Source: a virus. From it: 41,147 nt of DNA. A program made the translations under genes and the position numbers. The notes below the pieces were generated by a model. It was not told the DNA's origin, did no database searches, and saw nothing but the letters and a program-made list of their open reading frames with translations. The stretch is from IMG/VR virus record IMGVR_UViG_3300022939_001455, positions 1 through 41,147 of that record; one strand, given 5' to 3'. This document shows, piece by piece, positions 2 to 33,034 of this stretch. Every line of letters starts with the position of its first letter. The stretch's first letter is position 1.

Positions 2-694
2 GATGCTAATATGATGGATACTTCTCTTGATGATTTAAAAATTATGCCAAGAGATGTATATGAAAAACGAATTAATCGTATTAAAGATAAAACAACTGGT
101 AAACTTGTTGTAAAAGAATATCCAACTGGTTCTGCTCATGCTGGACATTTCCGACATCTATTAAATGAATTAAAGATGAAACGTGGATTTACTCCAGACG
201 TTATCTTTATTGATTATTTAAATATATGTGCTTCATCTCGAGTTAAAGGCGCGGCTCAAGCAAACTCTTATACACTTGTAAAATCAATTGCAGAAGAAAT
301 TCGTGGTCTTGCAATGGAGTTTAATTGCGCTATTGTAACATCTTCTCAATATAATAGAGATGCTTATGGAAACTCTGATGTAGATCTTACAAATACTTCA
401 GAATCTATGGGTATTACTCATACCGCGGATTGTATACTTGGTATTATATCATCTGAAGATCTTGATAATCTTGGCCAAATTATGTTTAAACAATTGAAAA
501 ATCGTTGGAATGATTTGAACTATTATCGTAGATTTGTAGTTGGTATTGATAGATCTAAAATGCAAATATATGATCTCGAAGATAATGCACAACAAAATAT
601 TCAAAATGATAATCCAACTGCTAATACAACACCAAATGGACCAGCTTTTGGACAATCTAAGAAAACATTATTCTCAGCAGGCGGCATTGTATAA
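2..694 (+). CDS. 41: Replicative DNA helicase, T4 gp41-like (C-terminal part)
   Basis: This is the C-terminal part of a DnaB/gp41-type hexameric helicase that unwinds the phage replication fork and pairs with the gp61 primase (encoded at 16275). The frame is open to the left edge, so the N-terminus lies outside the window; the first internal ATG is at 11. The RecA-like core is recognisable from the Walker B stretch VIFIDYLN and the following SQYNR segment, which resembles the DnaB motif H3/H4 region. A Gln/Asn/Pro-rich tail of about 40 residues ends the protein. T4 gp41 is 475 aa; about 231 codons are seen here. Identification is by family resemblance from memory. Confidence 0.88.
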   Translation, partial: DANMMDTSLDDLKIMPRDVYEKRINRIKDKTTGKLVVKEYPTGSAHAGHFRHLLNELKMKRGFTPDVIFIDYLNICASSRVKGAAQANSYTLVKSIAEEIRGLAMEFNCAIVTSSQYNRDAYGNSDVDLTNTSESMGITHTADCILGIISSEDLDNLGQIMFKQLKNRWNDLNYYRRFVVGIDRSKMQIYDLEDNAQQNIQNDNPTANTTPNGPAFGQSKKTLFSAGGIV

Positions 695-697
695 ATA
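690..697 (+). promoter_or_regulatory. T4-type late promoter box TATAAATA
   Basis: An exact match to the T4 late-promoter -10 element (recognised by gp55-loaded RNA polymerase in T4). It overlaps the helicase stop codon and lies 24 bp before the ATG at 722. The same box precedes 7170, 11792 and 15363. In such AT-rich DNA chance matches occur, so the support comes from the shared placement in front of head-type genes. Confidence 0.6.
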
Positions 698-721: not shown

Positions 722-1543
722 ATGAAGGGTTTTAAAAAATATATCAATGAAACAGTTGGCGTGGGCGGTCTTGCGTATGAAGCAAAAGTACGTAAGTCTG
801 TAATTCAAACTTTAAAAAACAGAGCGTTTTCAAAAGATAAACGTATTACTCTTAAACCAGACAATGCTGGTGGATTTGCTTCTAATGTAGTAGATATGTA
901 CCTTACTTTAGATGGTAAAGATGTTCCTGTAGAAATTAAAATGGATAAAGATGCTCAAATGGGCGGACCATCTGTTAAGATTAATAAAGGAAAACCATAC
1001 GGACTTTCAAAAGCAGGTGAAGATCTTGAAGATGATGTACAAGAAATGATTATCAATGCTGTTAAGTCAAAAGAAAGACCTATCAGAAATTATATCAAGC
1101 AAATGAAAACGCTAGAGCCAATTGAGCTACATAAGCAAGCTGGCGTATACGAAGTTCCATTCAAAACAACAAAAGAAGCTTGGGCAATATTACAGAAAAA
1201 AGGTTTACTCAAACCTATCAATACTATAGTTAAATATAATACTAAATTTATTCATGATTGGTATGCAAGAAAAAAATGTTATTATATTCAAATTGGTAAA
1301 TTGGGTATGTTCTATTTACAAAAAAATCCATTAGGTTTAAAAATTCCACAACTTAAAGCAGATATAGAAATTTATGTTCGCTTGACTCGTTCTGGTTCTG
1401 GCGGAACTAAAGCATATCCAACACAAAGATCATCTCAAATCAGAGCAATTGCTAGTCTAAAAGTAAAAGGTGGTAAATCTCCATTATCTTTAGATAATCC
1501 AAAAGATGTAGAAGAAATATTTAATCAAATGATGAGCAAGTAA
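722..1543 (+). CDS. PD-(D/E)xK nuclease-like protein with capsid-targeting-like N-terminus
   Basis: A 273-aa protein not recognised as a named family. Residues E20, D58 and E71-I-K73, within beta-strand-like surroundings, fit the helix-E, D, ExK pattern of PD-(D/E)xK nucleases, so a DNA-cutting or DNA-binding role is possible. The N-terminus (MKGFKKYINE) resembles the short capsid-targeting sequences of T4 internal head proteins, and I8-N-E10 fits the I/L-x-E site of the T4 prohead protease gp21. A TATAAATA box lies just upstream, which fits late expression. The next gene at 1545 carries a similar nuclease-like signature. The fold and the packaging are both inferred from short motifs only. 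Confidence 0.5.
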   Translation: MKGFKKYINETVGVGGLAYEAKVRKSVIQTLKNRAFSKDKRITLKPDNAGGFASNVVDMYLTLDGKDVPVEIKMDKDAQMGGPSVKINKGKPYGLSKAGEDLEDDVQEMIINAVKSKERPIRNYIKQMKTLEPIELHKQAGVYEVPFKTTKEAWAILQKKGLLKPINTIVKYNTKFIHDWYARKKCYYIQIGKLGMFYLQKNPLGLKIPQLKADIEIYVRLTRSGSGGTKAYPTQRSSQIRAIASLKVKGGKSPLSLDNPKDVEEIFNQMMSK

Positions 1544-1544
1544 A

Positions 1545-2552
1545 ATGGCAACATTTACTGCTATGAATTTTCCTCGCGAAGGCAATGAAGATTTTAATAG
1601 AGCAGGATATAGAACAGTATATGCTCCGTCATCAAATGCAAATACTTTTAAATATGCAAAAGGATTTCCATTAGCACAAGATACATATTTGTATACTGAT
1701 GATGGTCAGCCTATAAGAAAACTAAATAAAGGTTCTCATGTTCATTTCTTATATCCTTCTAGATTAGTTCATAATTTAGATATAGGTATTTCTAGAAGAG
1801 GTACATATAGCGCCATTTCTACTAAAAGTCATAAAGGTAGAGTAGAAGGATATATTTTAATTAGTCATGTAATTAAACCAGCCGGCGGAGCACAAAATAG
1901 AGTTGCTTCGGGTTCAGCCTCACAAAAAGCTGTTGCTGATGCAGTACAAAATATAGCATTCAAACATGATTATGATTATAAATTTATTTCTATGGCTAGG
2001 CCGGGATCTAATGCGCCAGATTTAATATGTGAAGTCGATGGCCACAAAACTCAGTTTGAAATTAAAGGCGCCGGAAGTGATAATGCACCTATTACATTTT
2101 TTGATAAATCGGTAAGTAGGATTAGAAAAACTCCAAAAATTATAGATGATATATCAAAATTATTTGCTACTCATAATAAACTTAAATTAGTAAAAAAAGA
2201 TTTTGTTAGTGTTATTGATTATTTTAGAGCAGAAAATAACGAGTTTGGGTTTCCTGGAGATGATGGAGCTCCAAAGTCCGGTAAAATACCACCATTTTTT
2301 ACAACAACAAGTAGACCATTATTATTAAAATTACATAAGTTAATATTACGTCATTTTGCTGAAGGTGGAGATAACTACTTTGTAATAAATAATAGAAGTA
2401 ATAATACTTTTAAATTTTATTATACTGAATACGGGCAAAATATTTTGCATTTAAAAGATCTTCCAGAGTTTAGTTCTTTTTCATTAGCAACATATGGTGG
2501 AGCTTCTAGTGGATCTATGCGCGCAGGTTTAAAAATAAAATTAAGAGATTAA
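1545..2552 (+). CDS. PD-(D/E)xK nuclease-like protein
   Basis: A 335-aa protein starting one base after the preceding stop codon, so translation is probably coupled. The middle holds a clear PD-(D/E)xK-type core: P158-D159, then E172-I-K174 after a short turn, as in Holliday-junction resolvases and restriction-type nucleases. Residues about 55-110 are beta-rich and end in GYILISHVIKP, which could be a small SH3-like barrel. It lacks the capsid-targeting-like N-terminus seen in the genes on either side. Function is inferred; a DNA-processing nuclease is the best guess. The C-terminal 150 residues carry no motif I recognise. Confidence 0.5.
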   Translation: MATFTAMNFPREGNEDFNRAGYRTVYAPSSNANTFKYAKGFPLAQDTYLYTDDGQPIRKLNKGSHVHFLYPSRLVHNLDIGISRRGTYSAISTKSHKGRVEGYILISHVIKPAGGAQNRVASGSASQKAVADAVQNIAFKHDYDYKFISMARPGSNAPDLICEVDGHKTQFEIKGAGSDNAPITFFDKSVSRIRKTPKIIDDISKLFATHNKLKLVKKDFVSVIDYFRAENNEFGFPGDDGAPKSGKIPPFFTTTSRPLLLKLHKLILRHFAEGGDNYFVINNRSNNTFKFYYTEYGQNILHLKDLPEFSSFSLATYGGASSGSMRAGLKIKLRD

Positions 2553-2594
2553 AAACGTTGTACTTTTTAATAAAAATAGGTTATAATATAACTA

Positions 2595-3827
2595 ATGGTT
2601 AGAACATTTAAACAACATTTAACAGAAGATAAAAATGTACATATGGAACACCTCGAAGATTCTATACTGAATCTTGGTGTTGATGGTACACGCTCTGCAA
2701 TTAATTTTTTGCGCAGTGTAAGAGATATGTTGGCAGGTAATGCTAAATCTGGTGTAAATGTAACAGTTAAATGGGATGGTGCTCCTGCAGTATTTGCTGG
2801 AACAGATCCTGAAGATGGTAAATTCTTTGTTGCGAAGAAATCAATTTTTAATAAAGTACCAAAAGTATATAAAACAAATGCTGATATAGATGCAGATACT
2901 GATGGTGATTTAAATGCTAAATTAAAACTTGCTTTAGCCGAGCTACCTAAACTCGGTATTAAAGGAGTTGTACAAGGTGATTTTTTATATGATAAAAAAG
3001 ATATTAAAACGGTTAACATTATGGGAGTCCCGCATATTACTTTCCATCCTAATACGATTGTTTACGCGGTACCTAAAGATAGTGACCTCGCGAAAGAAAT
3101 CCTCGGATCCAAGATCGGAGTGGTATGGCACACAACATACACAGGAAACTCAATTAAAGAACTGTCTGCTTCTTTTGGAAAAGAGATTGCAAGCGGTCTC
3201 AAAAAAACGAAAGGAGTCTGGTCAGTAGATGCTGTCTATAAAGATGTTTCTGGTAATGCTACAATGACTGGAAAAGAAACTGCTTTTGTTACTAAAAAGC
3301 TTTCAGAAGCTGGTATGTTATTTAGAAAAATTAAAAAAGAAACATTTAATGGTATTTCAGATAATCCTGATACATTAATGAGAGTTAAAACTTTTATTAA
3401 TACAAAAATTAGAGAAGGCCAACGAATTGGAAATACGAGAATATTTGTTAAGCAATTACAGGACTATATAAATAATGTATATCAAAAAGATGCAGACAAA
3501 AAGAAAACAGAGAAGGGTAAGGCAAGTTCGTTTGCAAAACGTGATGCAACTTTGGAGTATTTCAAAAAAACACCCGCATCTCAGATAACAATGATGTTTG
3601 ATTTGTATAATTTAATTATAGATATTAAACATATAATTATTAGTAAATTAGATAAAGCAAAGAGAATAGGAACGTTCTTAAGAACAGATAATGGTTATGA
3701 AGTAACAGAACAAGAAGGTTTTGTTGCAATCGATCACATGGGTAAAAACGCAGTTAAACTTGTTGATCGTCTTGGATTTAGTAGAGCTAATTTCTCAGAC
3801 AAATATATTAAAGGTTGGCAAAAATAA
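2595..3827 (+). CDS. Ligase-fold covalent nucleotidyltransferase (putative RNA/DNA ligase-like)
   Basis: A 410-aa protein with the spaced motifs of the ATP-dependent ligase/capping-enzyme superfamily: motif I K59-W-D-G62 (the lysine that would carry AMP), a motif III-like V-Q-G-D-F at about 126-130, motif IV-like E373-G-F-V, and motif V-like K387-L-V-D-R. A 100-200 residue insertion separates III and IV. The N-terminus (MVRTFKQHLTED) resembles T4 capsid-targeting peptides, with L9-T-E11 as a gp21-type cleavage site. This protein group is usually called unknown in marine phages. It could seal RNA or DNA or adenylylate another target. The ATG has no good Shine-Dalgarno. The stop abuts the next ATG. 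Confidence 0.6.
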   Translation: MVRTFKQHLTEDKNVHMEHLEDSILNLGVDGTRSAINFLRSVRDMLAGNAKSGVNVTVKWDGAPAVFAGTDPEDGKFFVAKKSIFNKVPKVYKTNADIDADTDGDLNAKLKLALAELPKLGIKGVVQGDFLYDKKDIKTVNIMGVPHITFHPNTIVYAVPKDSDLAKEILGSKIGVVWHTTYTGNSIKELSASFGKEIASGLKKTKGVWSVDAVYKDVSGNATMTGKETAFVTKKLSEAGMLFRKIKKETFNGISDNPDTLMRVKTFINTKIREGQRIGNTRIFVKQLQDYINNVYQKDADKKKTEKGKASSFAKRDATLEYFKKTPASQITMMFDLYNLIIDIKHIIISKLDKAKRIGTFLRTDNGYEVTEQEGFVAIDHMGKNAVKLVDRLGFSRANFSDKYIKGWQK

Positions 3828-4565
3828 ATGGCTCAATATTATCCAAGTGAAGATTTACATCTAAATATAGCAAGAGGACTTGTTAAAGGTACTTCATTTA
3901 TCCACAAGTTTGGTGCCGTTCCTGCTTTAAGTATTAATGTAACGGGGTCGGTTTGGGATATTAATGATACATTGTATCCTTGGGCAGCATTAGATACTCC
4001 TGCTGTTGTGAACGTTAAAAGAAATAACATAGCAGACGAAGGTCATACAGTTACAGTTCAAGGCTTGGATTCTGATTATAATTTTCAAGAGGAAGAAATT
4101 GTAATTTCAGGTACTGACACTCTTAGTACTAAACTATTCCGTAGAGTAAATCGCGCATTTTGTACTGCAGGTGGTGAAACAAATACTGGCAATATTGATA
4201 TTGAAGCAGGCGCAGCTGGCGGAACAATTGTTGCTCGTATTACTGCAGGTAAAGGTCAAACACTAATGGCTGTTTATACTGTTCCTGCAGGAAGTACGGC
4301 ATATATTACACAAGGGGTTTCTTCAGTTCAAGGTGGCGGGCAAGCAACAGGTGATATGATGATTCGCCAATTTGGTCAAGATACTTTCCGTGTTGGGCAT
4401 AGTTTTGAAGTAACTTCAGATGGTGGAGCTTATTTCTATCCATTCAGTGTCCCTGTAGCAGTATCTGAAAAATCTGATATTGATGTTAGAGCAAAAGCTG
4501 CTGGTAATAATTCTCGTGTTACTTCAGCATTCGATATAATTTTAATTAAAAATGGACTTGGCTAA
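3828..4565 (+). CDS. Putative virion structural protein
   Basis: A 245-aa, Gly/Thr/Ala/Val-rich, beta-strand-rich protein with no transmembrane or catalytic motif. The start codon follows the preceding stop directly. Composition (few Lys/Cys, many short alternating hydrophobic strands, repeated GGT/AGG turns) is typical of phage tail or decoration proteins. I recall similar proteins annotated as structural in marine T4-like phages, but cannot name the component. It sits between the ligase-like gene and the surface-modification cassette, so an attachment structure that becomes modified is conceivable, though that is speculation. Confidence 0.45.
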   Translation: MAQYYPSEDLHLNIARGLVKGTSFIHKFGAVPALSINVTGSVWDINDTLYPWAALDTPAVVNVKRNNIADEGHTVTVQGLDSDYNFQEEEIVISGTDTLSTKLFRRVNRAFCTAGGETNTGNIDIEAGAAGGTIVARITAGKGQTLMAVYTVPAGSTAYITQGVSSVQGGGQATGDMMIRQFGQDTFRVGHSFEVTSDGGAYFYPFSVPVAVSEKSDIDVRAKAAGNNSRVTSAFDIILIKNGLG

Positions 4566-4607
4566 ACTCAATAAATAAAAAATATATTTTGTAAATGGAG
4601 AAATATT

Positions 4608-5168
4608 ATGGGTATAATTCGTGACCGTGGTAATGATGGTGGCAATATTTGGAGATGGGACACTCTCATCAGATTCATTAAAGAAAACAATTATAAAACA
4701 GGCGCTGAACTTGGAGTGCACGATGGTGTAAGCTTCAAAAATATGGTAAAACGTTGTCCTGAATGTAATTTAGTTGGTGTTGATTTATATGAATCACAAC
4801 CAGAAAATAATGGTCCAGAAAAATGGACACCAGGCGAAAATGGACATGCTTGGGATCATAAACGTTATTACACAGATTTATTAAACTTTTGTCATAATCA
4901 TGATAACGCTGTTATTATTAAAGATTATACAACAAATGTCGCAGAACAATATCCAGACGGCCATTTCGATTTTGTATTTATTGATGCTGATCATGGATAT
5001 GAAGGTTGCTTAAGAGATATTAAAGCTTGGCACCCTAAAGTCCGTGAAGGCGGTAGAGTTATTGGTCATGATATTCACTTTCCTACAGTACAAAAAGCTG
5101 TTACAGAATTTTACGGAGAAAACTCTTGGAACACCGAAGATGATTTCATTTGGTGGATTCAAAAATAA
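4608..5168 (+). CDS. Class I SAM-dependent methyltransferase
   Basis: A 186-aa protein with a class I methyltransferase core: motif I around residues 26-31 (AELGVHDG, binding S-adenosylmethionine), an acidic end of beta-2 (GVDLYE), then a DFVFIDADHGYEG segment and a REGGRVIGHD strand. This pattern matches the Methyltransf_24 group, which often acts on sugars or small molecules. A GGAG Shine-Dalgarno precedes the ATG. Its stop overlaps the next start by one base, and it opens a four-gene cassette with two glycosyltransferases and a sulfotransferase, so a glycan substrate is likely. The exact substrate cannot be told. Confidence 0.75.
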   Translation: MGIIRDRGNDGGNIWRWDTLIRFIKENNYKTGAELGVHDGVSFKNMVKRCPECNLVGVDLYESQPENNGPEKWTPGENGHAWDHKRYYTDLLNFCHNHDNAVIIKDYTTNVAEQYPDGHFDFVFIDADHGYEGCLRDIKAWHPKVREGGRVIGHDIHFPTVQKAVTEFYGENSWNTEDDFIWWIQK

Positions 5169-5812
5169 TGATTGAAAAGAAACTTTCACAAATTTGGATT
5201 GGTCCAAAGCCTGCTCCATTAAAATGGATGTATACTTGGAGAGATAAACATCCAGGCTGGGAGTATTCTATTTTTACTGATGAAATGTTAAAATCTCGTA
5301 AGTGGCATAATCAACATTTAATAGAACATTATTATAATACTGCAAAATGGCCTGGCGTTTCCGATTTAATTCGTTATGAATTATTGTATGAACGGGGTGG
5401 ATTTTGGCCTGAAGCAGATATGGAATGTTTAAATGACACTACAGAATTATTTGTAGCACCTGACGATCATGCATATACATGTTATGAAAATGAAAAAGGT
5501 AGAGAAAACTTTGTACAACCAATTATGGCTGCTAATCCAGAAAATCAATTTGTTAAACATATAATTGATACACTTCATAAATTAAAACCACAAGATCTTA
5601 AAGAACCTTGGATGTCAACAGGGAATGCATTTCTTGCAAATCATGTTGTTAATTGGAAAGATAAATTAACTATATGGCCTTCACATTGGTTCATCCCTTT
5701 ATTTTATATTGGTGGAGCAAAGCGCTATGACGGACCTGATAAAGTGTATGCAGACCACAAATGGGGGTCCACAGGCCATGCAAATAGTGTATCATATGAT
5801 AGAGGAATATAA
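5168..5812 (+). CDS. Glycosyltransferase, GT32-like (DXD sugar transferase)
   Basis: A 214-aa protein resembling the short GT32/Gly_transf_sug group: IPKxIHQIW-type opening (here LSQIWIGPKP, residues 6-15), WEYSIFTDE, then SDLIRYELLYERGGFW at 65-80 followed by E82-A-D84, a variant of the usual metal-binding DXD. It would transfer a sugar from a nucleotide donor in the cytoplasm. I chose the ATG at 5168 because it overlaps the previous stop (TAATG) and starts where family members start; the TTG at 5150 would add six residues inside the previous gene. The Asp-to-Glu change in the DXD may alter metal use. Confidence 0.72.
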   Translation: MIEKKLSQIWIGPKPAPLKWMYTWRDKHPGWEYSIFTDEMLKSRKWHNQHLIEHYYNTAKWPGVSDLIRYELLYERGGFWPEADMECLNDTTELFVAPDDHAYTCYENEKGRENFVQPIMAANPENQFVKHIIDTLHKLKPQDLKEPWMSTGNAFLANHVVNWKDKLTIWPSHWFIPLFYIGGAKRYDGPDKVYADHKWGSTGHANSVSYDRGI

Positions 5813-6471
5813 TGTATATATCACACAAATATAAATTAATATTTTTAAGAACACCTAAAACAGCAAGTAGTAGTTTATCAGAATTTTTTATTAAAAATAT
5901 TCCTGATGATTACGCGATTTATACTCCAGTAGAAGATTCTAATATTCCTGGAACGTTAAATCCAGATATTATTAATAAGTATAAAATTAATTTTAAATAT
6001 TATCATTTTACATTAGAAGATTTAGTTAATAATGAAATTATAACAGAAGAACAAGCAAAAACATATAAATCATTTGCTGTTATAAGAGATCCAGTTGATA
6101 GACAAAAAAGCTTTTATTATTTCTATAAAAACTGGAAAGGTAGGCATTCACCTGCATCATTAGATGAATATAAAGCCTGGACTTCAAATGGTTCATTTAT
6201 TGGAGAACCAAACTCTGCTATTAAACAAACAGATATTCTTTCTATAAACGAAGAAATTATTGGTAATTATTGGTTATATGAAAACATAAATGATGAATTA
6301 AATAATCTTATGAATGAATTACATTTGCCTGTTAAGTATCCATTAACTAATCATAAAAATGGTTATAGAAAAAATAGAGATAATGAAATTGTATTTGATG
6401 ATCAGTCTATGAGTGATTTAAGAAATGCATTTACTAAAGACTTTGAAATATATGAAAGCTTACATTCTTAA
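5812..6471 (+). CDS. Sulfotransferase family protein
   Basis: A 219-aa PAPS-dependent sulfotransferase-like protein. Residues 13-21 (RTPKTASSS) match the 5'-phosphosulfate-binding loop (PKTGSTS type), and IRDPVDR near residues 91-97 matches the 3'-phosphate-binding motif. It would move a sulfate group from PAPS to a sugar or another hydroxyl. The start overlaps the previous stop by one base and the end overlaps the next gene by 20 bases, so the four-gene cassette is translationally coupled. Sulfotransferases are found in some marine phages. Acceptor unknown; a host or virion glycan is the reasonable guess given its neighbours. Confidence 0.75.
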   Translation: MYISHKYKLIFLRTPKTASSSLSEFFIKNIPDDYAIYTPVEDSNIPGTLNPDIINKYKINFKYYHFTLEDLVNNEIITEEQAKTYKSFAVIRDPVDRQKSFYYFYKNWKGRHSPASLDEYKAWTSNGSFIGEPNSAIKQTDILSINEEIIGNYWLYENINDELNNLMNELHLPVKYPLTNHKNGYRKNRDNEIVFDDQSMSDLRNAFTKDFEIYESLHS

Positions 6472-7135
6472 AATTGATACACCTATTTCAAATGAGTATG
6501 CTAAAACATGTGCAGACTCTTGTGATAAAGTAGGATTAAACTGGGAATATTTTAATGGATACCAAAATATGACCGGTGCTGCAGCATGGGGATTAACAGG
6601 TATTAAAACTCAATTTAATGAAGCTTATCGTTATATAGAAAATCCAAATGCTGCTCAAAAAGCAAATGCTTGTAGTGCTGGACATGCCGCAATATGGAAA
6701 AAAATTGCAGAAGGTCCAGATGATATTGGTATTGTATTAGAACATGATGCAATAATGCTTCAACCAATAACTATTCCTATTCCTGAAAATATGATTGTAA
6801 CTCTTGGTTATAAAATGCCAGATATAGAAAGATATGATCATGTTGCAGCAGGCCTTCCTACTGAAATTATTCCTATTCGTGGTCATGAAGGTGCGCATGC
6901 ATATGCAATGACTAAAAATACTGCGCAGTTTCTTGTAAACGAAATAGAAGCAAGAGGTGTTATGAGTGCAGTTGATAATGCTTATTTTATTATGGGACAA
7001 AGAAGTACTAGAGTTCCATTAGGAATAATGTCACCTACGCCTGCAATTGGTTGGTTAAGAGAATCAACAATCTGGGGTGGATCAGCATATAGAAACTATA
7101 ATTTTATACCTTCCTTTCAGGAAAATTATAAATAA
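6452..7135 (+). CDS. Glycosyltransferase, GT25-like
   Basis: A 227-aa protein resembling the GT25 (LPS biosynthesis) family: MKAYILKID opening, ACSAGHAAIWKKI at about 73-85 (family version ACxxSHxxxWKKI), V-L-E97-H-D99-A in place of the DXD-type LEDDA, and GAHAYAMTKNTAQFLV, which matches the family's GTxAYxISxxxAxxLL. I prefer the ATG at 6452 over 6425 because family members begin with this strand and the earlier ATG lies deeper inside the sulfotransferase. A TATAAATA box overlaps its stop and belongs to the next gene. It closes the glycan-modifying cassette. Confidence 0.68.
   Translation: MKAYILKIDTPISNEYAKTCADSCDKVGLNWEYFNGYQNMTGAAAWGLTGIKTQFNEAYRYIENPNAAQKANACSAGHAAIWKKIAEGPDDIGIVLEHDAIMLQPITIPIPENMIVTLGYKMPDIERYDHVAAGLPTEIIPIRGHEGAHAYAMTKNTAQFLVNEIEARGVMSAVDNAYFIMGQRSTRVPLGIMSPTPAIGWLRESTIWGGSAYRNYNFIPSFQENYK
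7127..7134 (+). promoter_or_regulatory. T4-type late promoter box TATAAATA
   Basis: Exact T4-late -10 consensus at the end of the GT25-like gene, 35 bp before the ATG at 7170. Placement is like the boxes before 722, 11792 and 15363, all putative head genes. Confidence 0.6.
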
Positions 7136-7169
7136 CAGTAACTAACAATAATTATTTTAGGATTTTATC

Positions 7170-10100
7170 ATGGCAGACAAGCCAAAAAAGGGTAAAAAGA
7201 GTTTTAAGTCTTTTAACCCAAAGAACATTATTGACGTAAAACCAACACTTGATGAAGCTGTAAAGAAAACGGCTGTAATTAGTTTTGGTAGAATGAATCC
7301 AATTACTATTGGTCATGAAAAGTTAGTAGGAAAAGTTACTACAGAAGCTAGAATGAGAAAAGGAACTCCTATGATTTTCTTAACTCATTCAGAAGATGCT
7401 AAGAAAAATCCTTTATCATATAATGATAAAATTAAATTTGCTCAAAAAGCATTTGGTAAAATTGTAGTAAAATCTCCAGCAAGAACAATTATCGAAGTTA
7501 CTAAATATTTAACTGGTAAATATAGTAATCTAGTAATGGTTGTTGGTTCTGACAGAATTAAAGAATTTGAATCTCTATTAAACAAATATAATAATAAAGA
7601 GTTTAAATTCGACAATATAGAAGTAGTATCATCTGGCGATAGAGATCCAGATGCAGAAGGCGTAACTGGCATGTCAGGTACTAAGATGAGAGAATTGGCA
7701 TCTAAAAACGACATTACTGCATTTACTAAAGGCCTTCCTAATAGATTAAAACCCAATGCTAAACAAGTATTATTAGCAGTAAGAAAAGGTATGAATATGT
7801 CAGAAGAAAATATAGTAGAAGAGCAAGAATTAGACGAAGCTTTAAGTAGAATGGCTCGTCGTAAACGTTCAATCGCTGCAAGGAGAGCACGTTTTAGAAT
7901 GAAGCGTGGTAGAGAAAGAGCGAAAAAGAGAGTTGCTTCTTTAGATGTACTTAAAAGACGTGCTCGTAAAGCTGCTATTAAATTTTTTAAGAAAAGATTT
8001 ACTAAAGGTAGAAATTATAATACAATGTCTGCTGGAGAAAAAGAAATCATTGATAAGAGAGTAGAAAAGATTAGTAAAAAACGTTTAGACCAAATCGCTC
8101 GTAAACTTCTTCCGAAGATTAAGAGAAAAGAATTAGATAGACGTAAAGCTATGATGGCACGCCAAACTAAAAATGAAGAAGTACATTTAGAAGAAGCTTC
8201 AAAAGCTGATACTAGAGTTCGTAAGCGCCCACACATGATGATGGATTCAAAAGGAGCTGTTAAATTTGATGGACGTTTTAAAATTTATAAGAAAAAAACA
8301 GTTAATGAATCAGTTGAAGATGAAGTAGTAGATTTAATGGAATCTACAGAAGCTTTTGCCAATTCAGTATCACCAGAGCAAATTGATGAGTTATCAAAAG
8401 AAAAATTAGCGGGATATGAAAAGAAAGCTAGAACTTCTGCCATAGTTAATGCTCTTAAGTTTGGTAAAAAAGCTCATGATAAGTATAAGAAAAGAGAAGC
8501 TGGTTTAAAGAAAGCATCAAAGAAAACTGGTACTCAATATTCAAATGCTTGGAGGCATGAATCTAATGCTAGTGGCGAAAAAAATCTAGAATTAGATAGA
8601 GAAAGAGCTGCAAAAGCAAAATTAAAGCCTAATGATCGTGCTAAAATAGATGCGATCAAATCTATGATGAAACACGCAAATGAAGAAACACAAATTGATG
8701 AATTATCAAATGATCTTTTACAAAGATATGATGATGCTAAAGAGAAAAAACATAGACAACCTGATGGTTCAACGAAATATAAAAGTGTACATCAATCATT
8801 GAAACGTACTGTTGGTGGTATTCGTTCTTTAAAAAGACAAGCAGGTTTTAAAGCACCTACTAATAAAGTTTCAAGAGCAGATCACTTTGCTGCATACGGT
8901 AAAGATGGACATAAAGTTGTAGCAAAACATAATAAAAAAGTAGCAAGAGAATCAGTTGAATATGATTTAAACGAAGATGCAAAAGTTATTGCTCACTTAG
9001 TTAAAAAAGGTTTAAATCCTAAAGATGCTGCAGCTTCTACAAAGAAACATTTACCTTATGTTAAAAAAGCATACGGTAACCTTTCACCTGCTCAAGCTGC
9101 CGCAAAAGTCAGTATGGCAAGAGCAAATGAAGAAAAACAAATCGACGAATTATCAAAAGATACATTAAAATCATATCGAAAAAAAGCTGATAAATCAGCA
9201 GTTGATAGTTTAACAAGTAATGATCCTAAGCAAAAATTAAAATACGGGAAAAGATTAACTGGTATGGGTAGAGCAACTAAAAGATTGAATAAAGAAGAAA
9301 AACAAATTGATGAATTATCAAAAGATACTCTTATGAAATACTCTGATGCTGCTTCTAAAGATCTTATGAAAGCAGTACATGGTGATAAAACTTCTAACAT
9401 CTATAAAGTTAATAAAACCTCAAAATCTGGTAAACCATTAACAGTCCAAGGTATTAGACGTAGACAAAACAAAAAATTTGATAGAAGAACATCACAATCA
9501 GGTGATGCATATCGAAAAGCACAAGCAATGGAAAGTGTCGAGCAAATTGATGAATTATCAAAAGATACACTTGGTAGTTATATTGGAAAAGCAACTGATG
9601 ATAAAAAAGCTTGGAAAGATACTAGAAAAGCTTTTGCAAAAAAAGGTTATAAAGATCATGGATTTGAAAACTCAAAAATAGCAAAAAGAAATACGGGTAT
9701 TAAGAAAGCAGCATCAAGATTGACTAAAGAAGATACACAATTTGATGAATCAATACATCACGATATAGATCATTCAGATCCAGATTTTAAACGTCTATTG
9801 AAAAAACACAATGTTACTCATAGTGTAGTTAAGAGAGGTCCACAATCTGGTGATAGTATTAAATTACATGGTGATAAAAAGAATGTTCAACATGTTTCAA
9901 AGGTATTAAGAAACCCAGAACAGCATCAAAATGAAGCATGGTCTCCATTAAGTAAAGGCACTCAAGATCATATTGCTGATGTTCAACAAAAGAGAGCAAA
10001 TGATCTTAAGAAATTAAGAGATGCAAAAAGAGCTAAGAATCCTACTTTCATGGATAAGTTTAAAAAAGGATTTAAGAAAGAAGATACAGAACAATTAGAT

Positions 10101-10625
10101 GAATTAAATCCTTCAACATTAGGAAGATATAGTCGTGCAGCTGCAAGAGATGTGGGTATTACTAGTGATCATAAAAGAATTAAAAAGCGTCTAAAAGGTA
10201 TCGATAATGCTACTCATAAGCTTGCTATGAAAGCAATTAGAGGTGGCGTAAGAGAATCGAAAGTACCTTTTGATCCTCCATATAAAAAGGTTAAAAGCGG
10301 TACTACTATAGATAAATCAGGTGCTAAACATACTCCAATGTCTAAAGCTCGTCATTTAGCTCAAATGGCTATTAAACAAGCAATGGATAAAAAGCAGAAA
10401 AAAGAAGATGTAAACGAAGCTACTTGGAGTGTTGATGTTGCGGGCATGCCTAAATTTTATGTCGATGGTAAATCACAAGGTGATGTCAAAAAAGAACTAC
10501 GCAAATTAATCAAATCCGATAAAATTAAAGAAATTATAGTTAAAAGAGTTCAGCCGATCGAGGTTAGAAAAGATTTTAGACAAAGATCTCAAGATCCATC
10601 TGGTAAAGCAGAAACAGAAGAATGA
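7170..10625 (+). CDS. Nucleotidyltransferase fused to a repeat-rich putative internal-head polyprotein
   Basis: A 1151-aa, very Lys/Arg-rich protein. Residues about 34-200 form a cytidylyltransferase/NMNAT-like domain: G40-R-M-N-P, then T46-I-G-H49 (the T/HxGH signature) and SGTKMRELA as the ISSTxxR-type motif. The remaining 950 residues are basic, low-complexity segments separated by acidic stretches with Q-I-D-E-L-S (near residues 404, 508, 658, 712, 792) and variants (Q-L-D-E-L near 975, L-D-E near 219, Q-F-D-E near 857, L-E-E before 350). Each fits I/L-x-E, the cleavage rule of T4 prohead protease gp21. I infer a late, packaged polyprotein that delivers a nucleotidyltransferase plus basic peptides. 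An alternative is a scaffold-type core protein. Substrate unknown; NAD or nucleotide metabolism is plausible. Confidence 0.6.
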   Translation: MADKPKKGKKSFKSFNPKNIIDVKPTLDEAVKKTAVISFGRMNPITIGHEKLVGKVTTEARMRKGTPMIFLTHSEDAKKNPLSYNDKIKFAQKAFGKIVVKSPARTIIEVTKYLTGKYSNLVMVVGSDRIKEFESLLNKYNNKEFKFDNIEVVSSGDRDPDAEGVTGMSGTKMRELASKNDITAFTKGLPNRLKPNAKQVLLAVRKGMNMSEENIVEEQELDEALSRMARRKRSIAARRARFRMKRGRERAKKRVASLDVLKRRARKAAIKFFKKRFTKGRNYNTMSAGEKEIIDKRVEKISKKRLDQIARKLLPKIKRKELDRRKAMMARQTKNEEVHLEEASKADTRVRKRPHMMMDSKGAVKFDGRFKIYKKKTVNESVEDEVVDLMESTEAFANSVSPEQIDELSKEKLAGYEKKARTSAIVNALKFGKKAHDKYKKREAGLKKASKKTGTQYSNAWRHESNASGEKNLELDRERAAKAKLKPNDRAKIDAIKSMMKHANEETQIDELSNDLLQRYDDAKEKKHRQPDGSTKYKSVHQSLKRTVGGIRSLKRQAGFKAPTNKVSRADHFAAYGKDGHKVVAKHNKKVARESVEYDLNEDAKVIAHLVKKGLNPKDAAASTKKHLPYVKKAYGNLSPAQAAAKVSMARANEEKQIDELSKDTLKSYRKKADKSAVDSLTSNDPKQKLKYGKRLTGMGRATKRLNKEEKQIDELSKDTLMKYSDAASKDLMKAVHGDKTSNIYKVNKTSKSGKPLTVQGIRRRQNKKFDRRTSQSGDAYRKAQAMESVEQIDELSKDTLGSYIGKATDDKKAWKDTRKAFAKKGYKDHGFENSKIAKRNTGIKKAASRLTKEDTQFDESIHHDIDHSDPDFKRLLKKHNVTHSVVKRGPQSGDSIKLHGDKKNVQHVSKVLRNPEQHQNEAWSPLSKGTQDHIADVQQKRANDLKKLRDAKRAKNPTFMDKFKKGFKKEDTEQLDELNPSTLGRYSRAAARDVGITSDHKRIKKRLKGIDNATHKLAMKAIRGGVRESKVPFDPPYKKVKSGTTIDKSGAKHTPMSKARHLAQMAIKQAMDKKQKKEDVNEATWSVDVAGMPKFYVDGKSQGDVKKELRKLIKSDKIKEIIVKRVQPIEVRKDFRQRSQDPSGKAETEE
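8370..10150 (+). repeat. Diverged tandem protein modules with QIDELS boundaries
   Basis: Within the 7170 gene, the nucleotide words coding E/Q-Q-I-D-E-L-S-K recur near 8376, 8686, 9133, 9298, 9541 and, diverged, 10086. They are spaced about 160-450 bp apart, each followed by D-T-L-x-x-Y-like codons and then a Lys-rich region. The units are not identical, so they look like old duplications under selection rather than recent slippage. A further unit (VELDEISQETLKSY) occurs in the 11792 gene near 12958. Confidence 0.75.
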
Positions 10626-11755
10626 TTTCTTTTAAAAAACACCACGGCGAAACCTTAGAGGAAGGTGTTAACGATCCTGCTATTTTTAAAGTAGTCTTTA
10701 CGGCGGGAGGTCCAGGTAGTGGTAAGTCATTTACTGCTCATATGGCTGGTCTTGTTCCATTAGGTTTTAAAGTAATTAATATTGATCCAGCATTTGAAAA
10801 AATGATGAAAGATGCCGGTTTAGATACTTCTAAACCAAACGAAGTTTTTTCAGATAAAGGTCAACAAATCCGTAAACTTGCAAATAATGTTGTAGGTACT
10901 CAAAAGAAACTTGCTTTAGAAGGCCGTCTTGGTCTTTTAATCGATGGTACTGGTAAAGATTATAATAAAATTAAAAGTCAAGTAGTAGCATTTAGAAGAA
11001 TGGGTTATGAATGCGCTATGATCTTTGTTAATACTGATCTTGAAACAGCAATCAATAGAGATATAGAACGAGGTAAAGGACCTGGTGGCCGTACACTTGG
11101 AAAACCAATGGTAAGTAAAATGTGGAAAGATGTGCAAAAGAACATCGGTAAATTCCAAAACTTATTTAAAGGCCAAATGTATATTGTTGATAATAATGAA
11201 GGAACAGATATTAGACAAGCCACATTACCAGTATATAGAAAGATTTCTGCTTGGGCTAAAAAAGAACCTCGCATGCCACAAGCAAAAGCTTGGATTACTG
11301 CAGCAAGAATGAAAAAAGAAGAGCATGGAGCAGGTGATAGAGGGACAGACGAATTAGTAAGTAATTTTAAAGCAGATACTCCAGGTGAAAACGGTAAAAA
11401 AGTAAAAATTACTAAACCTTCTACAAATGACGAATTATTACAAGAAGGTATTGCAAAAGACTTGCTCAAAGATATTGCAAAGATTGCAATAGGTAAAAAA
11501 CGTTTCCATGATTTAAAACGCATGGTTAATAAAGACAAATATAAATTTGCTGTTACTCAATATAGAAAAATGAAAAAAGATGTTAGAAGTTCTGGTGGAC
11601 CAGAAAAATGGATTAATAAACATGGATTGGGTAGAGGTGCAAGATTAATGCCAGGTATGTTAGATAATTATTTAAAAAATACTGCAGCAGATTTAGCAGG
11701 CATTACTCCAAAAGAGTTCAATGCGGTTTTAAATAGAAACACAAGATATAAGTAA
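10622..11755 (+). CDS. P-loop kinase (zeta-toxin-like) with capsid-targeting-like N-terminus
   Basis: A 377-aa protein with Walker A G29-G-P-G-S-G-K35-S near the N-terminus, an INIDPA strand that resembles the substrate-side Asp of zeta-toxin/UDP-GlcNAc kinases, and a FVNTDLETAINRD segment with lid arginines (RDIERGKGPGGR). It would phosphorylate a small molecule or nucleotide using ATP. The last 150 residues are basic and have no known domain. The N-terminus (MISFKKHHGETLEE) resembles T4 capsid-targeting peptides, with L12-E-E14 as a gp21-type site. The start overlaps the 7170 stop by four bases (ATGA), so it is co-translated with that head-type polyprotein. Packaging is inferred. Confidence 0.65.
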   Translation: MISFKKHHGETLEEGVNDPAIFKVVFTAGGPGSGKSFTAHMAGLVPLGFKVINIDPAFEKMMKDAGLDTSKPNEVFSDKGQQIRKLANNVVGTQKKLALEGRLGLLIDGTGKDYNKIKSQVVAFRRMGYECAMIFVNTDLETAINRDIERGKGPGGRTLGKPMVSKMWKDVQKNIGKFQNLFKGQMYIVDNNEGTDIRQATLPVYRKISAWAKKEPRMPQAKAWITAARMKKEEHGAGDRGTDELVSNFKADTPGENGKKVKITKPSTNDELLQEGIAKDLLKDIAKIAIGKKRFHDLKRMVNKDKYKFAVTQYRKMKKDVRSSGGPEKWINKHGLGRGARLMPGMLDNYLKNTAADLAGITPKEFNAVLNRNTRYK

Positions 11756-11763
11756 TATAAATA
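11756..11763 (+). promoter_or_regulatory. T4-type late promoter box TATAAATA
   Basis: Exact T4-late -10 consensus in the 36-bp gap after the kinase stop, 28 bp before the ATG at 11792. It is intergenic, unlike some of the other copies, which strengthens it. Confidence 0.65.
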
Positions 11764-11791
11764 TATCAAAACAATATTCAAAGGGTTAAAA

Positions 11792-13630
11792 ATGAAATCA
11801 TTTAACAGTTTTAAAGAAGCTATGGATCCGGTTAATAAAGCGGCTCTTAAAAAGAAACATAAAGAGCGTAAAGACCAAGATATTAATAATGACGGTAAAG
11901 TTAACGATACTGACAAATATTTACATAACCGCCGTCAAGCAGTAACACAACAAATAGGTGAAAAATTAAAAGCTTCTGATGATATGGGTAAGTGGATTGA
12001 TGATTTCCAAGACTCTGATGCACCTCAATTTAAAGGTAAGTCCAAAGAAAAGAAACGCCAAATGGCTATTGCAGCTAAGCTAGATGCAGAAAAAAATGAA
12101 AGTTATAAGTCATATGCTCAACAAAAAGCAGTATGGGCATCTCGTAAAGATGGTGGTAAAGGACATCCTGATAATAAAAAGAAAAATGAATCAAACGTTG
12201 AAGAAGCTAAGAAAATGAAAGGCGAAGATCCTTGTTGGGATAGTCATGAAATGGTGGGCATGAAAGATAAGAATGGTAAGAAAGTTCCGAACTGTGTACC
12301 AAAAAATGAATCAGCAGAAAACAGAGTTGACGTAATTAGAGCAGTAGCTCAAAAAATTGCTATGGAAAAAGAAGCAAAAAGAAAAGCGGCTGAGAAAAAA
12401 GCAGAAGCTGATGCTAAAAAAGCAATGGCTAATGAATCAAAAGATCCAAATAGATATGATGATGGTCCAGGTGTAGATCCAAATAGATATGATGATGGTC
12501 CAGGCGTAACACCTAAAAAGAAAAAGACTATAAAAGAACTATCAAATAAAACACAGAGCGAAGGATATACAGGTGGTCCTCATGATGCTGATTGGGTTAA
12601 TAAATCTGAAAAGTTAGAAAGAGCTAGAAATAGAGCTAAGAGAATGGGTGATCATAAAAAACACGCAGAACTAGATGCTCAAATTAAACAACACTATAAG
12701 CGCGGACCTGGTGTGCGTGAAGCAGTAGATCCACAGGATAAAGGTGAGTATGATGATGAGGGTGGTATGGCACAAACTCAAATCAATAAAATCATGGATG
12801 CTGCAAAAGAATTAAAAGGTATAATCGGTAAAGACGATAATCTACCTGAGTGGGTGCAATCTAAAATGACTAAAGCATCTGACTACATTGATGGTGTTCG
12901 TGATTATCTTAAAAACAAATCAGACACTAACGAAGCAACTATGCCTTATACTGAAGAAGTAGAGCTCGATGAGATTTCACAAGAAACTTTGAAGTCATAT
13001 AAGAAGAAAGCAACATCAGATGCTGTTACTAATATGATTGGCGGTCAAGGTTCTGTTAAGAGACTAGACAAGAGAATCAAAGGCATGAAAATGGCTGATA
13101 AAAGATTAAATAAAGAAGATTATAAAGAAATATTTTTAAATTATATTTCTGAAAATACTCTTACTTTAGAAGATCTTAATAACTTTAATGATGAGCAACT
13201 TGATGAAATGATTGGTCAAGCAATGAAAAGCGCTGGCCGTATGACTGCAGATAAAAGAGCAGATGCCGCTGAGAAAAAAGCTAAGTCATTACAAAATCAA
13301 GTAAAAGATGTTGCAAGATTAAAAAAAGCTAGAAATGCTCAAACAAAAGCTAGATTAGCATTGAGAAATGCAAGACGTAATGTTGCATCAGCTAGAGCAG
13401 CAATTAGAACTGAAAGTAGTTGTGGAAGTAAAAAGAAGCACATGAAAGAGGCAGGACCGAATCCTACAGGTGGCGCAACTAATGCTACATCTGGTTCTAA
13501 ATCAACCACAAATACTACAAAGCCTAGTACTGCTAAAAAAGGAACAGTTTTAAGAAAAAGCTATTCTAAAAAAGATCTATCGACTCCAGCGAAAACTGCT
13601 ACGCCGATTGATTTAACTGTACAATTTTAA
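11792..13630 (+). CDS. Modular, EF-hand-like, putative internal-head polyprotein
   Basis: A 612-aa Lys/Ala/Asp-rich protein. It opens with MKSFNSFKEA, like T4 capsid-targeting peptides. D30-x-N-x-D34-G-x-V-x-x-x-D41 is a good EF-hand/dockerin calcium loop. Further parts are a Cys-containing DPCW..VPNC segment near 147-170, a tandem 11-residue repeat near 218-239, a module at about 317-375 (EYDDEGGMA to YLKN), a QIDELS-like module (V-E-L-D-E-I-S, about 390) shared with the 7170 protein, and a Ser/Thr/Lys-rich tail. I recall similar modules scattered through marine T4-like phage proteins annotated as hypothetical or prohead-like. It has its own late-type box. A head-packaged, protease-processed protein is inferred. 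Confidence 0.5.
   Translation: MKSFNSFKEAMDPVNKAALKKKHKERKDQDINNDGKVNDTDKYLHNRRQAVTQQIGEKLKASDDMGKWIDDFQDSDAPQFKGKSKEKKRQMAIAAKLDAEKNESYKSYAQQKAVWASRKDGGKGHPDNKKKNESNVEEAKKMKGEDPCWDSHEMVGMKDKNGKKVPNCVPKNESAENRVDVIRAVAQKIAMEKEAKRKAAEKKAEADAKKAMANESKDPNRYDDGPGVDPNRYDDGPGVTPKKKKTIKELSNKTQSEGYTGGPHDADWVNKSEKLERARNRAKRMGDHKKHAELDAQIKQHYKRGPGVREAVDPQDKGEYDDEGGMAQTQINKIMDAAKELKGIIGKDDNLPEWVQSKMTKASDYIDGVRDYLKNKSDTNEATMPYTEEVELDEISQETLKSYKKKATSDAVTNMIGGQGSVKRLDKRIKGMKMADKRLNKEDYKEIFLNYISENTLTLEDLNNFNDEQLDEMIGQAMKSAGRMTADKRADAAEKKAKSLQNQVKDVARLKKARNAQTKARLALRNARRNVASARAAIRTESSCGSKKKHMKEAGPNPTGGATNATSGSKSTTNTTKPSTAKKGTVLRKSYSKKDLSTPAKTATPIDLTVQF
12443..12508 (+). repeat. 33-bp direct tandem repeat, two copies
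   Basis: Two adjacent in-frame 33-bp units (12443-12475 and 12476-12508) differ at one base (GTGTA versus GCGTA near the end). Each encodes the 11 residues DPNRYDDGPGV. The near-identity means a recent duplication inside the 11792 gene. Confidence 0.95.
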
Positions 13631-15317: not shown

Positions 15318-15325
15318 TATAAATA
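15318..15325 (+). promoter_or_regulatory. T4-type late promoter box TATAAATA
   Basis: Exact T4-late -10 consensus starting two bases after the PG-binding gene, 37 bp before the ATG at 15363. Same placement as the other late-type boxes. Confidence 0.6.
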
Positions 15326-16274: not shown

Positions 16275-17291
16275 ATGATTGATTTTGTTGATGTTCAGTA
16301 TGCTCAAATGCTGTCTGGTAGACTTGAGCAATTCAAAATAAAACACACAAATCCTTATAAAATCAATTTCAGATGTCCTGTATGTGGTGATTCAAAAAAG
16401 TCACGCACTAAGGCTCGTGGTTGGCTTTTAGAAAGAGATAATAAGTTTACATATTATTGTCATAATTGCGGTGCAAGCCAAGGGTTTAATTTCTTCTTAA
16501 AAAGTTTAGATCCTTTACTTTATAATGATTATATTGCAGAAAAGTTTGTTAATAATGCGAATAACAAAACAGAAGCTGCAAATACTGATATAGAGCAATT
16601 TAAAACAAAAGCACCTACCTTCAAAGCAAATCCTCTTAAAACATTAAAAAAAGTTAGTCAATTATCTTTTGACCATCCAGTAAAAAAATACGTAGTAAAA
16701 AGAAAAATACCGTCTAATCAACATTATCGAATGTTTTTTGCTCCAAAGTTTAAGACATGGATTAATTCAATTATACCAGATAAATTTGATAATTTAGATA
16801 AAGATGAGGCAAGACTTGTAATACCTTTTGTTGATAAAGAAAATAATGTATACGGTGTTTCTGCACGAGGATTTAATCCAAAAGGAATACGATACATTAC
16901 TATTATGTTTGATGAAAGACAAAAAATTTTTGGATTAGATAAAGTTGATTTTAATAAGAAATATTACATAGTTGAAGGTGCTCTTGATAGTATGTTTCTT
17001 TCTAATGCTATTTCAATGAATGGAGCAGAAGGTACAACTACTGATATTAAACATCTCGAGAACGCAGTCTTCGTATTTGATGCGGAACCAAGAAATAAAG
17101 AGATACATAAAAGAATGGAAAAAGTTATTAAGAATGGCCACAAGATATGCATCTGGCCCAACGACGTCCCCGCCAAGGACATAAATGATATGTACTTAAA
17201 TGGCGTTCAAGATGTTGAAAAACTTATTAATGACAATACATATACAGGACTTCAGGCTGAATTAAAATTCGCTGAATGGAAAAGAACATAG
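16275..17291 (+). CDS. 61: DNA primase, T4 gp61-like
   Basis: A 338-aa primase that makes RNA primers for lagging-strand synthesis with the gp41 helicase (encoded at 2). A zinc ribbon is formed by C34-P-V-C37 and C62-H-N-C65. The Toprim-type catalytic core follows: VEGALDSMF (the conserved Glu), then VFVFDAEPRN (Asp) and a C-terminal PAKDINDMY. Length fits T4 gp61 (342 aa). It is first in an operon behind a perfect sigma70-like promoter. The stretch 17050-17180 is markedly richer in G and C than its surroundings. Confidence 0.92.
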   Translation: MIDFVDVQYAQMLSGRLEQFKIKHTNPYKINFRCPVCGDSKKSRTKARGWLLERDNKFTYYCHNCGASQGFNFFLKSLDPLLYNDYIAEKFVNNANNKTEAANTDIEQFKTKAPTFKANPLKTLKKVSQLSFDHPVKKYVVKRKIPSNQHYRMFFAPKFKTWINSIIPDKFDNLDKDEARLVIPFVDKENNVYGVSARGFNPKGIRYITIMFDERQKIFGLDKVDFNKKYYIVEGALDSMFLSNAISMNGAEGTTTDIKHLENAVFVFDAEPRNKEIHKRMEKVIKNGHKICIWPNDVPAKDINDMYLNGVQDVEKLINDNTYTGLQAELKFAEWKRT

Positions 17292-31450: not shown

Positions 31451-31648
31451 ATGAGTAAAGAAATTTTACTAGAAGAGTTAGAAGCAGTTAAACACTGTAT
31501 TGAAATGACTAATGAAAAGATCGGTCACGATGCAACACGAGATAAGATTGTAGAAGTATTAAATAATCGAATCGCTGAATTGCAAAAATTTGTCGATGCA
31601 AAAATTGCATCAGAAGATTTAGTAAGTGAACCTTTCGAAGTAGCATAG
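31451..31648 (+). CDS. Small helical protein, unknown function
   Basis: A 65-aa protein directly behind a perfect sigma70-like promoter and a GAGGAG site, so probably abundant early. It is mainly one amphipathic helix (LLEELEAVKHCIEMTNEKIG, then ELQKFVDAKI) with a short acidic tail. No recognised domain. A small host-takeover protein would fit the promoter strength, though nothing in the sequence shows which target. Confidence 0.6.
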   Translation: MSKEILLEELEAVKHCIEMTNEKIGHDATRDKIVEVLNNRIAELQKFVDAKIASEDLVSEPFEVA

Positions 31649-31657
31649 GAGTATAAT

Positions 31658-31783
31658 ATGAAATTTGATACATTTACATCAGAAAAAGGTTATGGGCATG
31701 TTGCCTTTAACAGAGCAAAAGAAGGAACTATAAGAGCAGCAATCTTTTTTATCGCCGCAATTATTATTGTAGGAATTTTCTGA
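31658..31783 (+). CDS. Small single-span membrane protein, 41 aa
   Basis: A 41-aa gene with ATAGGAG before the ATG. The first 24 residues are polar; then AAIFFIAAIIIVGIF forms one clear membrane helix up to the C-terminus. The stop overlaps the next start by one base (TGATG). The orientation and function are unknown. Confidence 0.65.
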   Translation: MKFDTFTSEKGYGHVAFNRAKEGTIRAAIFFIAAIIIVGIF

Positions 31784-31986
31784 TGCCAATTAAAGGAAAA
31801 GTAGAAGGTCACAAAGGTGGACATTATATTGCCGGAGTTGGTACAGAAGAAGGTAATCATAAAAACAAGAAACGCTGGTTAAAAGGAAAGAAACGCCCGG
31901 ACTTAGACGCGCTAGAAGCAGGTGATCCTGACGGAAATGTTATTGATTGGTCTACTGGATTTTTAAGTAAGATTAATAAAGTATAG
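31783..31986 (+). CDS. Small basic protein, unknown function
   Basis: A 67-aa protein translated from the ATG in the TGATG overlap with the membrane protein gene. It is Gly/Lys-rich in the first half (MPIKGKVEGHKGGHYIAGVG, KKRWLKGKKRPD) and acidic then mixed in the second. No known family. Its TAG overlaps a GTG start of the next small gene. Confidence 0.5.
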   Translation: MPIKGKVEGHKGGHYIAGVGTEEGNHKNKKRWLKGKKRPDLDALEAGDPDGNVIDWSTGFLSKINKV

Positions 31987-32144
31987 TGTGGTTTAACCAT
32001 CAGCAAAATCTCGAAAAGAAAATGCGAGAGTTTTTAGAATACTATGACGGCGTAGTGCCAGATCCTGAGCACTACCCGTTGCAGTTTGCATTTTATGTAA
32101 AAATGTACAACCTTTACCTTGAAAGGAAGAGAGATGAAAGTTAA
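31986..32144 (+). CDS. Small protein, 52 aa, GTG start
   Basis: A 52-aa gene. GTG at 31986 overlaps the previous TAG by one base. The product (opening MWFNHQQNLEKKM, then FLEYYDGVVPDPEHYPLQFA, then FYVKMYNLYLERK) has the look of a conserved small phage protein that I recall from marine T4-like genomes. It overlaps the next gene by 11 bases. Function unknown. Confidence 0.6.
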   Translation: MWFNHQQNLEKKMREFLEYYDGVVPDPEHYPLQFAFYVKMYNLYLERKRDES

Positions 32145-32703: not shown

Positions 32704-32706
32704 AAT

Positions 32707-33024: not shown

Positions 33025-33026
33025 TT

Positions 33027-33034
33027 TATAAATA
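33027..33034 (+). promoter_or_regulatory. Possible late promoter box TATAAATA
   Basis: Exact late-type consensus three bases after a stop codon, 30 bp before the GIY-YIG-like gene at 33064. That gene is not clearly a late one, so a chance match is quite possible. Confidence 0.35.

Follow-up and report, generated by a model that had tools for sequence, protein, structure and literature searches.

Phage T4 carries in its head the internal proteins (IPs) IPI–IPIII and the enzyme Alt, products of late genes that have unrelated bodies and begin with a propeptide of 10–19 residues, the capsid-targeting sequence (CTS; MKTYQEFIAE), with aromatic residues at positions 4 and 7 and an I/L-x-E motif at positions 8–10. 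In IPIII, residues 4 and 7 serve targeting and residues 8 and 10 serve cutting, and the prohead protease gp21 cleaves after L/I-x-E (PMC9026906). The ejection proteins of the giant phages SPN3US and phiKZ are likewise numerous, packaged with the genome, and matured by the prohead protease. Their cleavage motifs are different and their propeptides longer, and we know of no short CTS of the T4 type among them. In cyanophages, NMNAT-like enzymes, kinases, and a SAM lyase have been found in virions by several groups; for example, a SAM hydrolase, an APH-like kinase, and a cytidylyltransferase were listed as “regulatory” proteins of S-CREM2 virions besides the structural proteins (PMC10665884). The authors of the cyanophage proteomes proposed no packaging route and doubted true packaging, and both the route and the reality of packaging had stayed unclear.

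Here we analyze the whole 41,147-nucleotide (nt) stretch of the virus record IMGVR_UViG_3300022939_001455 (hereafter the window), in which several genes, named below by their start positions (Table 1), encode proteins with T4-like N-termini. We consider it likely that these genes form a cargo island whose products bear T4-type capsid-targeting propeptides, are packaged, are cut by the prohead protease, and are freed for delivery. The system resembles T4 IPI–IPIII and Alt in its propeptide, predicted late genes, gp21-type protease in relatives, and unrelated cargo bodies. Unlike the T4 IPs, which are small, basic, and encoded elsewhere, the cargo here consists mostly of large nucleotide or nucleic-acid enzymes encoded between the counterparts of T4 genes 41 and 61, and some of it consists of fused polyproteins with internal tags. 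The NMNAT-like protein and the kinase are similar to the regulatory virion proteins of S-CREM2, S-SM1, S-SZBM1, S-SCSM1, and S-CRM01, which have the same tag, whereas the tagged DUF6267 and nuclease-like proteins distinguish the window from those cyanophages.

Capsid-targeting-like propeptides in the window

The strict pattern ^M.{1,4}[FYW]..[FYWH][ILMV].E, which has the T4 spacing, was set from the literature before any scan. It selects 2 of the 58 window genes, 722 and 2595, compared with 0.054 expected from shuffled N-termini (P about 0.001), and both reproduce the T4 order of aromatic, two residues, aromatic or His, I/L, any residue, and E. The targeting half alone is found in 8 of the 58 genes (2.5 expected, P about 0.0025), including 722 (F4/Y7), 2595 (F5/H8), 10622 (F4/H7), and 11792 (F4/F7); His at the second site is common, occurring in 10 of 105 cases in relatives. 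The half-motif alone is weak evidence because the other four half-matches are probably noise. Relaxed motifs were dropped, as they strongly raise the background, and our claims therefore rest on the strict pattern.

The preliminary description had assigned a T4-like CTS to the products of 722, 2595, 10622, and 11792, and an I/L-x-E site to three of them. All four N-termini are present as quoted there, and the three sites are INE, which ends at residue 10 of the 722 protein and is its sole I/L-x-E; LTE, which ends at residue 11 of 2595; and LEE, which ends at residue 14 of 10622. The CTS assignment holds in full for 722 and 2595. In 10622, the targeting half is retained and the L-x-E↓G cleavage site (↓ marks the observed or predicted cut) is displaced by four residues, just upstream of the kinase domain; in relatives, too, the kinase domain follows an LxE↓G (ILKE↓G in HTVC008M and ELQE↓G in L073). 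The 11792 protein has the targeting half but no nearby site. Judged by sequence, 722 and 2595 are proteins with a CTS, and 10622 is probably a third.

Tag enrichment across relatives

A total of 80 IMG/VR loci were retrieved with a four-sequence DUF6267 alignment and combined with the window and three cultured-phage stretches into a set of 84 loci. In this set, 102 of 1158 non-redundant gene starts carry the strict motif, compared with 0.9 after shuffling (maximum 4) and 0.6 at internal positions. DUF6267 is over-represented here because the loci were fetched through it, and a scan of whole genomes is the fairer test; in ten of these, the motif occurs in 27 of 2304 genes, compared with about 1.8 after shuffling. 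A blind scan of T4 with the same motif picks up IPII and IPIII.

The T4 hypothetical protein gp61.1 (54 residues; L185:1467–1631, corresponding to T4 18966–19130, minus strand) begins with MKTFKEFIKE, a full CTS match, and its gene lies in the 61–41 interval, as the window cluster does; it may be an unrecognized T4 internal protein. A relaxed tag, MKTFSRILSE, begins a 709-residue gene product encoded between the portal and prohead protease genes of a head-gene locus (L133, IMG/VR G002 31513–33642).

Tagged proteins in published virion proteomes

In S-CREM2, the strict motif selects 3 of 215 genes, which are exactly the three regulatory virion proteins named above; their tags are MKDFDSFLEE, MKRFDAFLTE, and MKNFSSFLTE. 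The virion-detected NMNAT-like proteins of other cyanophages begin with MRFRQFIIE (S-SZBM1, PMC9146016), MKKFSAFLNE (S-SM1, PMC3037559), and MKSFLQFLKE (S-SCSM1, PMC9602691), the last of which was looked up at the end as a check. The S-CRM01 kinase, virion-associated as cited in PMC10665884, begins with MISFDQFLSE. By contrast, an untagged DUF6267 protein of S-SZBM1 (MAKNTHLEHLE), which is encoded beside the NMNAT-like enzyme, is absent from the proteome table.

The preliminary description took the window proteins for a set of enzymes delivered with the genome. The presence of tagged enzymes in cyanophage virions supports packaging, whereas delivery into the host would follow by analogy with T4; the set is uneven, and 11792 encodes no recognizable enzyme.

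Two further proteins have a tag-like sequence after a leader of 18–19 residues: S-CREM2 gp12 (L087:7704–10313, minus strand; annotated as Cas9-like and found in virions), with FASFMAE↓AA, and an S-CRM01 protein that is shorter but resembles it at the N-terminus (L094:9415–9966), with LDSFIKE↓AA.

Prohead protease and capsid cleavage sites

Every one of the nine complete or near-complete relatives searched has a gp21-type (S77) prohead protease, as does T4; the search found none in two shorter contigs. The major capsid proteins contain L-x-E at the T4 gp23 site (FLTE↓A), mostly followed by A or T: LLTE↓A in S-CREM2, FLTE↓A in G004, ILTE↓A in S-SZBM1, FLSE↓A in Melnitz, LLGE↓A in DLP6, FLTE↓T in C48C1, ILTE↓T in S-SM1, LLME↓T in G002, FLAE↓A in S-CRM01, and FLGE↓I in HTVC008M. 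The ends of the tags are the same kind of sequence as the capsid-protein cleavage sites.

In virion-detected gp160 of S-CREM2 (L086:28343–29236), residues 23–45, GATGFTGAAAPEGPVAGYDPLMG, are a copy of the major capsid protein arm that immediately follows the cleavage site, GADGFTGAAAPGGPNAGFDPVM.

Proposed mechanism and alternative explanations

There is strong support for a T4-like capsid-targeting propeptide shared by late proteins that are otherwise unrelated: its enrichment, its conservation among orthologues, the S77 protease and matching capsid sites in relatives, and, above all, the virion proteomes. Packaging by this type of signal is likely and well supported. We propose a late-expressed cargo island of a T4-like marine phage, in which the aromatic and basic N-terminal stretch would dock each protein on the prohead scaffold core, the gp21-type protease would be expected to cut after the E once the cargo is loaded, and the enzyme, freed inside the head, would be able to leave with the DNA at infection. 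The cargo would include the nuclease-like 722 and ligase-like 2595 proteins; the 10622 kinase and the NMNAT-like 7170 polyprotein would probably belong to it as well, and 11792 might. Sequence and published proteomics document the tag, its conservation, and its link to virion presence in cyanophages; we infer the roles of the enzymes and, for this phage, docking, cleavage, and injection with the genome, the last by analogy with the T4 IPs and Alt. The tag shared by these proteins and by cyanophage enzymes found in virions means, therefore, that the phages probably carry an enzyme kit into the cell with their DNA.

Several points weigh against this proposal. Only one of the three strict matches of S-SZBM1 was detected in its virions, two small tagged proteins being missing, and the association of tag and proteome in S-CREM2 (3/3) and S-SZBM1 (1/3) combined has a Fisher P of about 0.01, uncorrected for relatedness; we regard the association as real, although the numbers behind it are small. 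CsCl-purified S-CREM2 virions may hold abundant non-virion protein, according to the authors (PMC10665884). No N-termini, and hence no cleaved ones, are reported in the available parts of the cyanophage virion papers. The phage is represented by a 41-kb fragment that has no proteome and in which no S77 protease gene was found. The motif also yields false positives, such as a UvsW-like helicase in C48C1 and probably T4 61.4, and no strict match was found in the genome of pelagiphage HTVC008M. Finally, 11792 has no I/L-x-E before residue 57.

The best surviving alternative, which we nevertheless regard as unlikely, is that the N-terminus is a scaffold-docking signal of assembly factors: the proteins would belong to the prohead core and either help to build the head or be cut to pieces by the protease, instead of being delivered as functional enzymes. 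In T4, gp22 and gp67 of the core undergo cleavage at sites of this type, and the 7170 product, with 15 [IL]xE sites compared with 7.8 after shuffling, would suit such a role. However, the 722 protein has only the site at its tag, the bodies behind the tags are enzyme domains, for instance of SAM lyase, NMNAT-like, ATP-grasp, HAD phosphatase, and kinase type, and mature virions have been found to contain large tagged enzymes.

It is very improbable that the resemblance is a legacy of a single ancestral protein and functionless today. Most tagged proteins do belong to two families, DUF6267 (44) and cytidylyltransferase (31), but, once the tag is removed, the tagged proteins of all sets fall into 36 clusters whose bodies BLAST does not relate to one another; they include a RimK-like ATP-grasp protein, HAD phosphatases, a 5′-nucleotidase-like protein, an AAA protein, a SAM lyase, DUF6267, and NMNAT-like proteins. 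In the 722 family, six members otherwise 19%–37% identical to 722 keep F4 and E10 among their few invariant residues. When 36 DUF6267 sequences were aligned without regard to the motif, 25 had the strict tag, 7 a relaxed tag, 2 a tag with one inserted residue, and 2, both from cyanophages, none. DUF6267 occurs in 464 phage records, and many cyanophage copies are without the tag, whereas the adjoining cytidylyltransferase retains it. The DUF6267 alignment was used instead of per-position synonymous counts, which are partly circular because their rows are chosen by the motif.

Although AAA/TTT-type codons follow ATG in many tags, a by-product of translation initiation or of AT-rich codon preference after the start codon, without a protein signal, is scarcely credible: matches become about 100-fold rarer when the same residues are shuffled, the kept positions (F, aromatic/His, I/L, and E) switch codons freely (TTT/TTC, GAA/GAG, and six Leu codons) with E10 kept, and full or near-full tags occur inside polyproteins. 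In L008, where a kinase is fused behind a cytidylyltransferase, the sequence before the kinase, GFKEHLELEE↓GVNDPAIFK, corresponds to the N-terminus of 10622; in L037/L038, SFKDFMSE↓V is found at residue 490. The number of full internal cores, two, does not exceed what chance would give (0.67 expected), and the internal-tag argument therefore rests on the L008 alignment. Such internal tags suggest release from a precursor and speak for a signal in the peptide itself, not one tied to the start codon.

Beyond the window, we lean slightly toward a wider reading for Kyanoviridae and related marine phages: one portable 10-residue tag would be the address by which dozens of unrelated enzymes (DNA/RNA ligase-like and nuclease-like proteins, NAD-synthesis-like proteins, kinases, SAM lyase, and ATP-grasp proteins) are loaded, some as internally tagged, protease-split polyproteins, so that the head would be a programmable delivery vehicle for counter-defence or takeover enzymes and the tag alone would predict virion cargo. 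T4 already provides the precedent for this kind of system; we did not find its wide use for enzyme loading in marine phages, or its fit to virion proteomes, described in the open-access literature, where the capsid-targeting term was not found applied to cyanophages or pelagiphages, save in a T4 review with one cyanophage mention. A readable tag would answer how, and whether, the cyanophage virion enzymes are packaged, would allow prediction of the enzymes that some of the most abundant marine phages inject, and would make hundreds of hypothetical genes testable as early-infection factors.

Probable cargo proteins

The preliminary description had named a nuclease-like fold, a ligase-like nucleotidyltransferase, and a kinase as the attached domains. 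The kinase is identified by Pfam, and ligase-type motifs support the nucleotidyltransferase; the nuclease fold stays unconfirmed, as the 722 structure model (predicted local distance difference test score, pLDDT, 40.5) is too poor to test a PD-(D/E)xK alpha/beta fold. The nuclease-like label of 722 is based on D58...E71-x-K73, which is invariant in its family, and makes it a candidate nuclease by motif. A Pfam search with the product of the neighboring gene 1545 returned no family above the cut-off.

The 2595 protein contains, in order, K59-W-D61-G62, Q127-G128-D129, E374-G375-x-V377, and K388, which we read as motif I (KxDG), a motif III-like GD, motif IV (EGxV), and the motif V lysine; K59, D61, G62, G128, D129, E374, G375, and K388, as well as Q127, are invariant in the 36 DUF6267 sequences. 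Its structure model (pLDDT 86.6) has a helical stretch (residues 226–353) between motifs III and IV and low confidence at residues 1–15, which are probably a disordered tail. Most top matches of the model in the PDB were DNA/RNA ligases and capping enzymes, none of them significant (E 0.15 or worse, TM score about 0.2). DUF6267 and cytidylyltransferase probably act together because they are fused in S-PM2, and metabolism of NAD or nucleic-acid ends is the likeliest theme we can suggest for the pair.

The 7170 product, homologues of which are present in virions of T4-like cyanophages according to published proteomes, could be a polyprotein that is cut into basic peptides inside the head; five of its [IL]xE sites are QIDELS repeats. 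These five QIDE↓LS repeats and one QLDE↓LN are each followed by a basic module. A general reading of QIDELS units as cleavable repeats across loci was set aside as too thin (15 units). The 10622 protein also matches phrog_505 polynucleotide kinase (E 1e-7). In sequence searches of the PDB, 7170 had no match, 2595 nothing meaningful, and 10622 weak adenylate-kinase matches only; 11792 has no confident Pfam domain.

Table 1. Predicted propeptides, candidate cargo genes, and promoter matches in the window.
Feature	Position	Strand	Basis
T4-type late promoter TATAAATA	690..697	+	Exact match, 32 nt upstream of 722
CTS-like propeptide MKGFKKYINE	722..751	+	Strict T4 spacing; predicted cut after E10
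Tagged protein, candidate PD-(D/E)xK-like nuclease, 273 aa	722..1543	+	D58, E71-x-K73; phrog_26930 E 7e-7
Untagged neighbor, same operon; PD...EIKG motif, nuclease-like by eye only	1545..2552	+	Sequence
CTS-like propeptide MVRTFKQHLTE	2595..2627	+	Strict spacing; predicted cut after E11
DUF6267, ligase-like covalent nucleotidyltransferase, 410 aa	2595..3827	+	Pfam PF19782 E 4e-112
Late promoter TATAAATA upstream of 7170	7127..7134	+	Exact match
NMNAT/cytidylyltransferase-like domain and basic modules with repeated QIDE↓LS sites, 1151 aa; candidate polyprotein	7170..10625	+	phrog_3041, phrog_395 cytidyltransferase
Shifted CTS-like propeptide MISFKKHHGETLEE	10622..10663	+	F4, H7 kept; predicted cut LEE↓G
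P-loop kinase, Zeta-toxin/polynucleotide-kinase-like, 377 aa	10622..11755	+	Pfam Zeta_toxin E 1.6e-9, AAA_33 E 4e-8
Late promoter TATAAATA upstream of 11792	11756..11763	+	Exact match
Low-complexity basic protein, targeting half only (MKSFNSFKEA)	11792..13630	+	Sequence; I/L-x-E search
Late promoter TATAAATA upstream of acidic 90-aa gene at 15363	15318..15325	+	Exact match

Late promoters and gene neighborhood

Six of the nine exact plus-strand matches to TATAAATA are located 15–60 nt upstream of a gene start, in zones that make up about 6% of the window, and 2595 and 10622 lie downstream in operons of promoter-bearing genes. The promoter matches predict late expression of the cargo genes. The cluster is located between genes for a DnaB-like helicase (11–694; gene 41) and a primase (16275–17291; gene 61), and DUF6267 and cytidylyltransferase genes also occur in this interval in Melnitz, DLP6, HTVC008M, S-PM2, and S-SZBM1.

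Methyltransferase and sulfotransferase genes, together with others that are glycosyltransferase-like by eye, are inserted within the cargo cluster (4608–7135). The acidic product of 15363 was considered as gp67-like for its acidic tail, and the assignment was rejected as no family confirmed it. An MALWG-type protein encoded at 13675–13992 matches the PHROG “head protein” family phrog_613; its relatives are found at the same place in Melnitz, HTVC008M, S-SM1, and S-PM2, and one of them is annotated as a virion structural protein.

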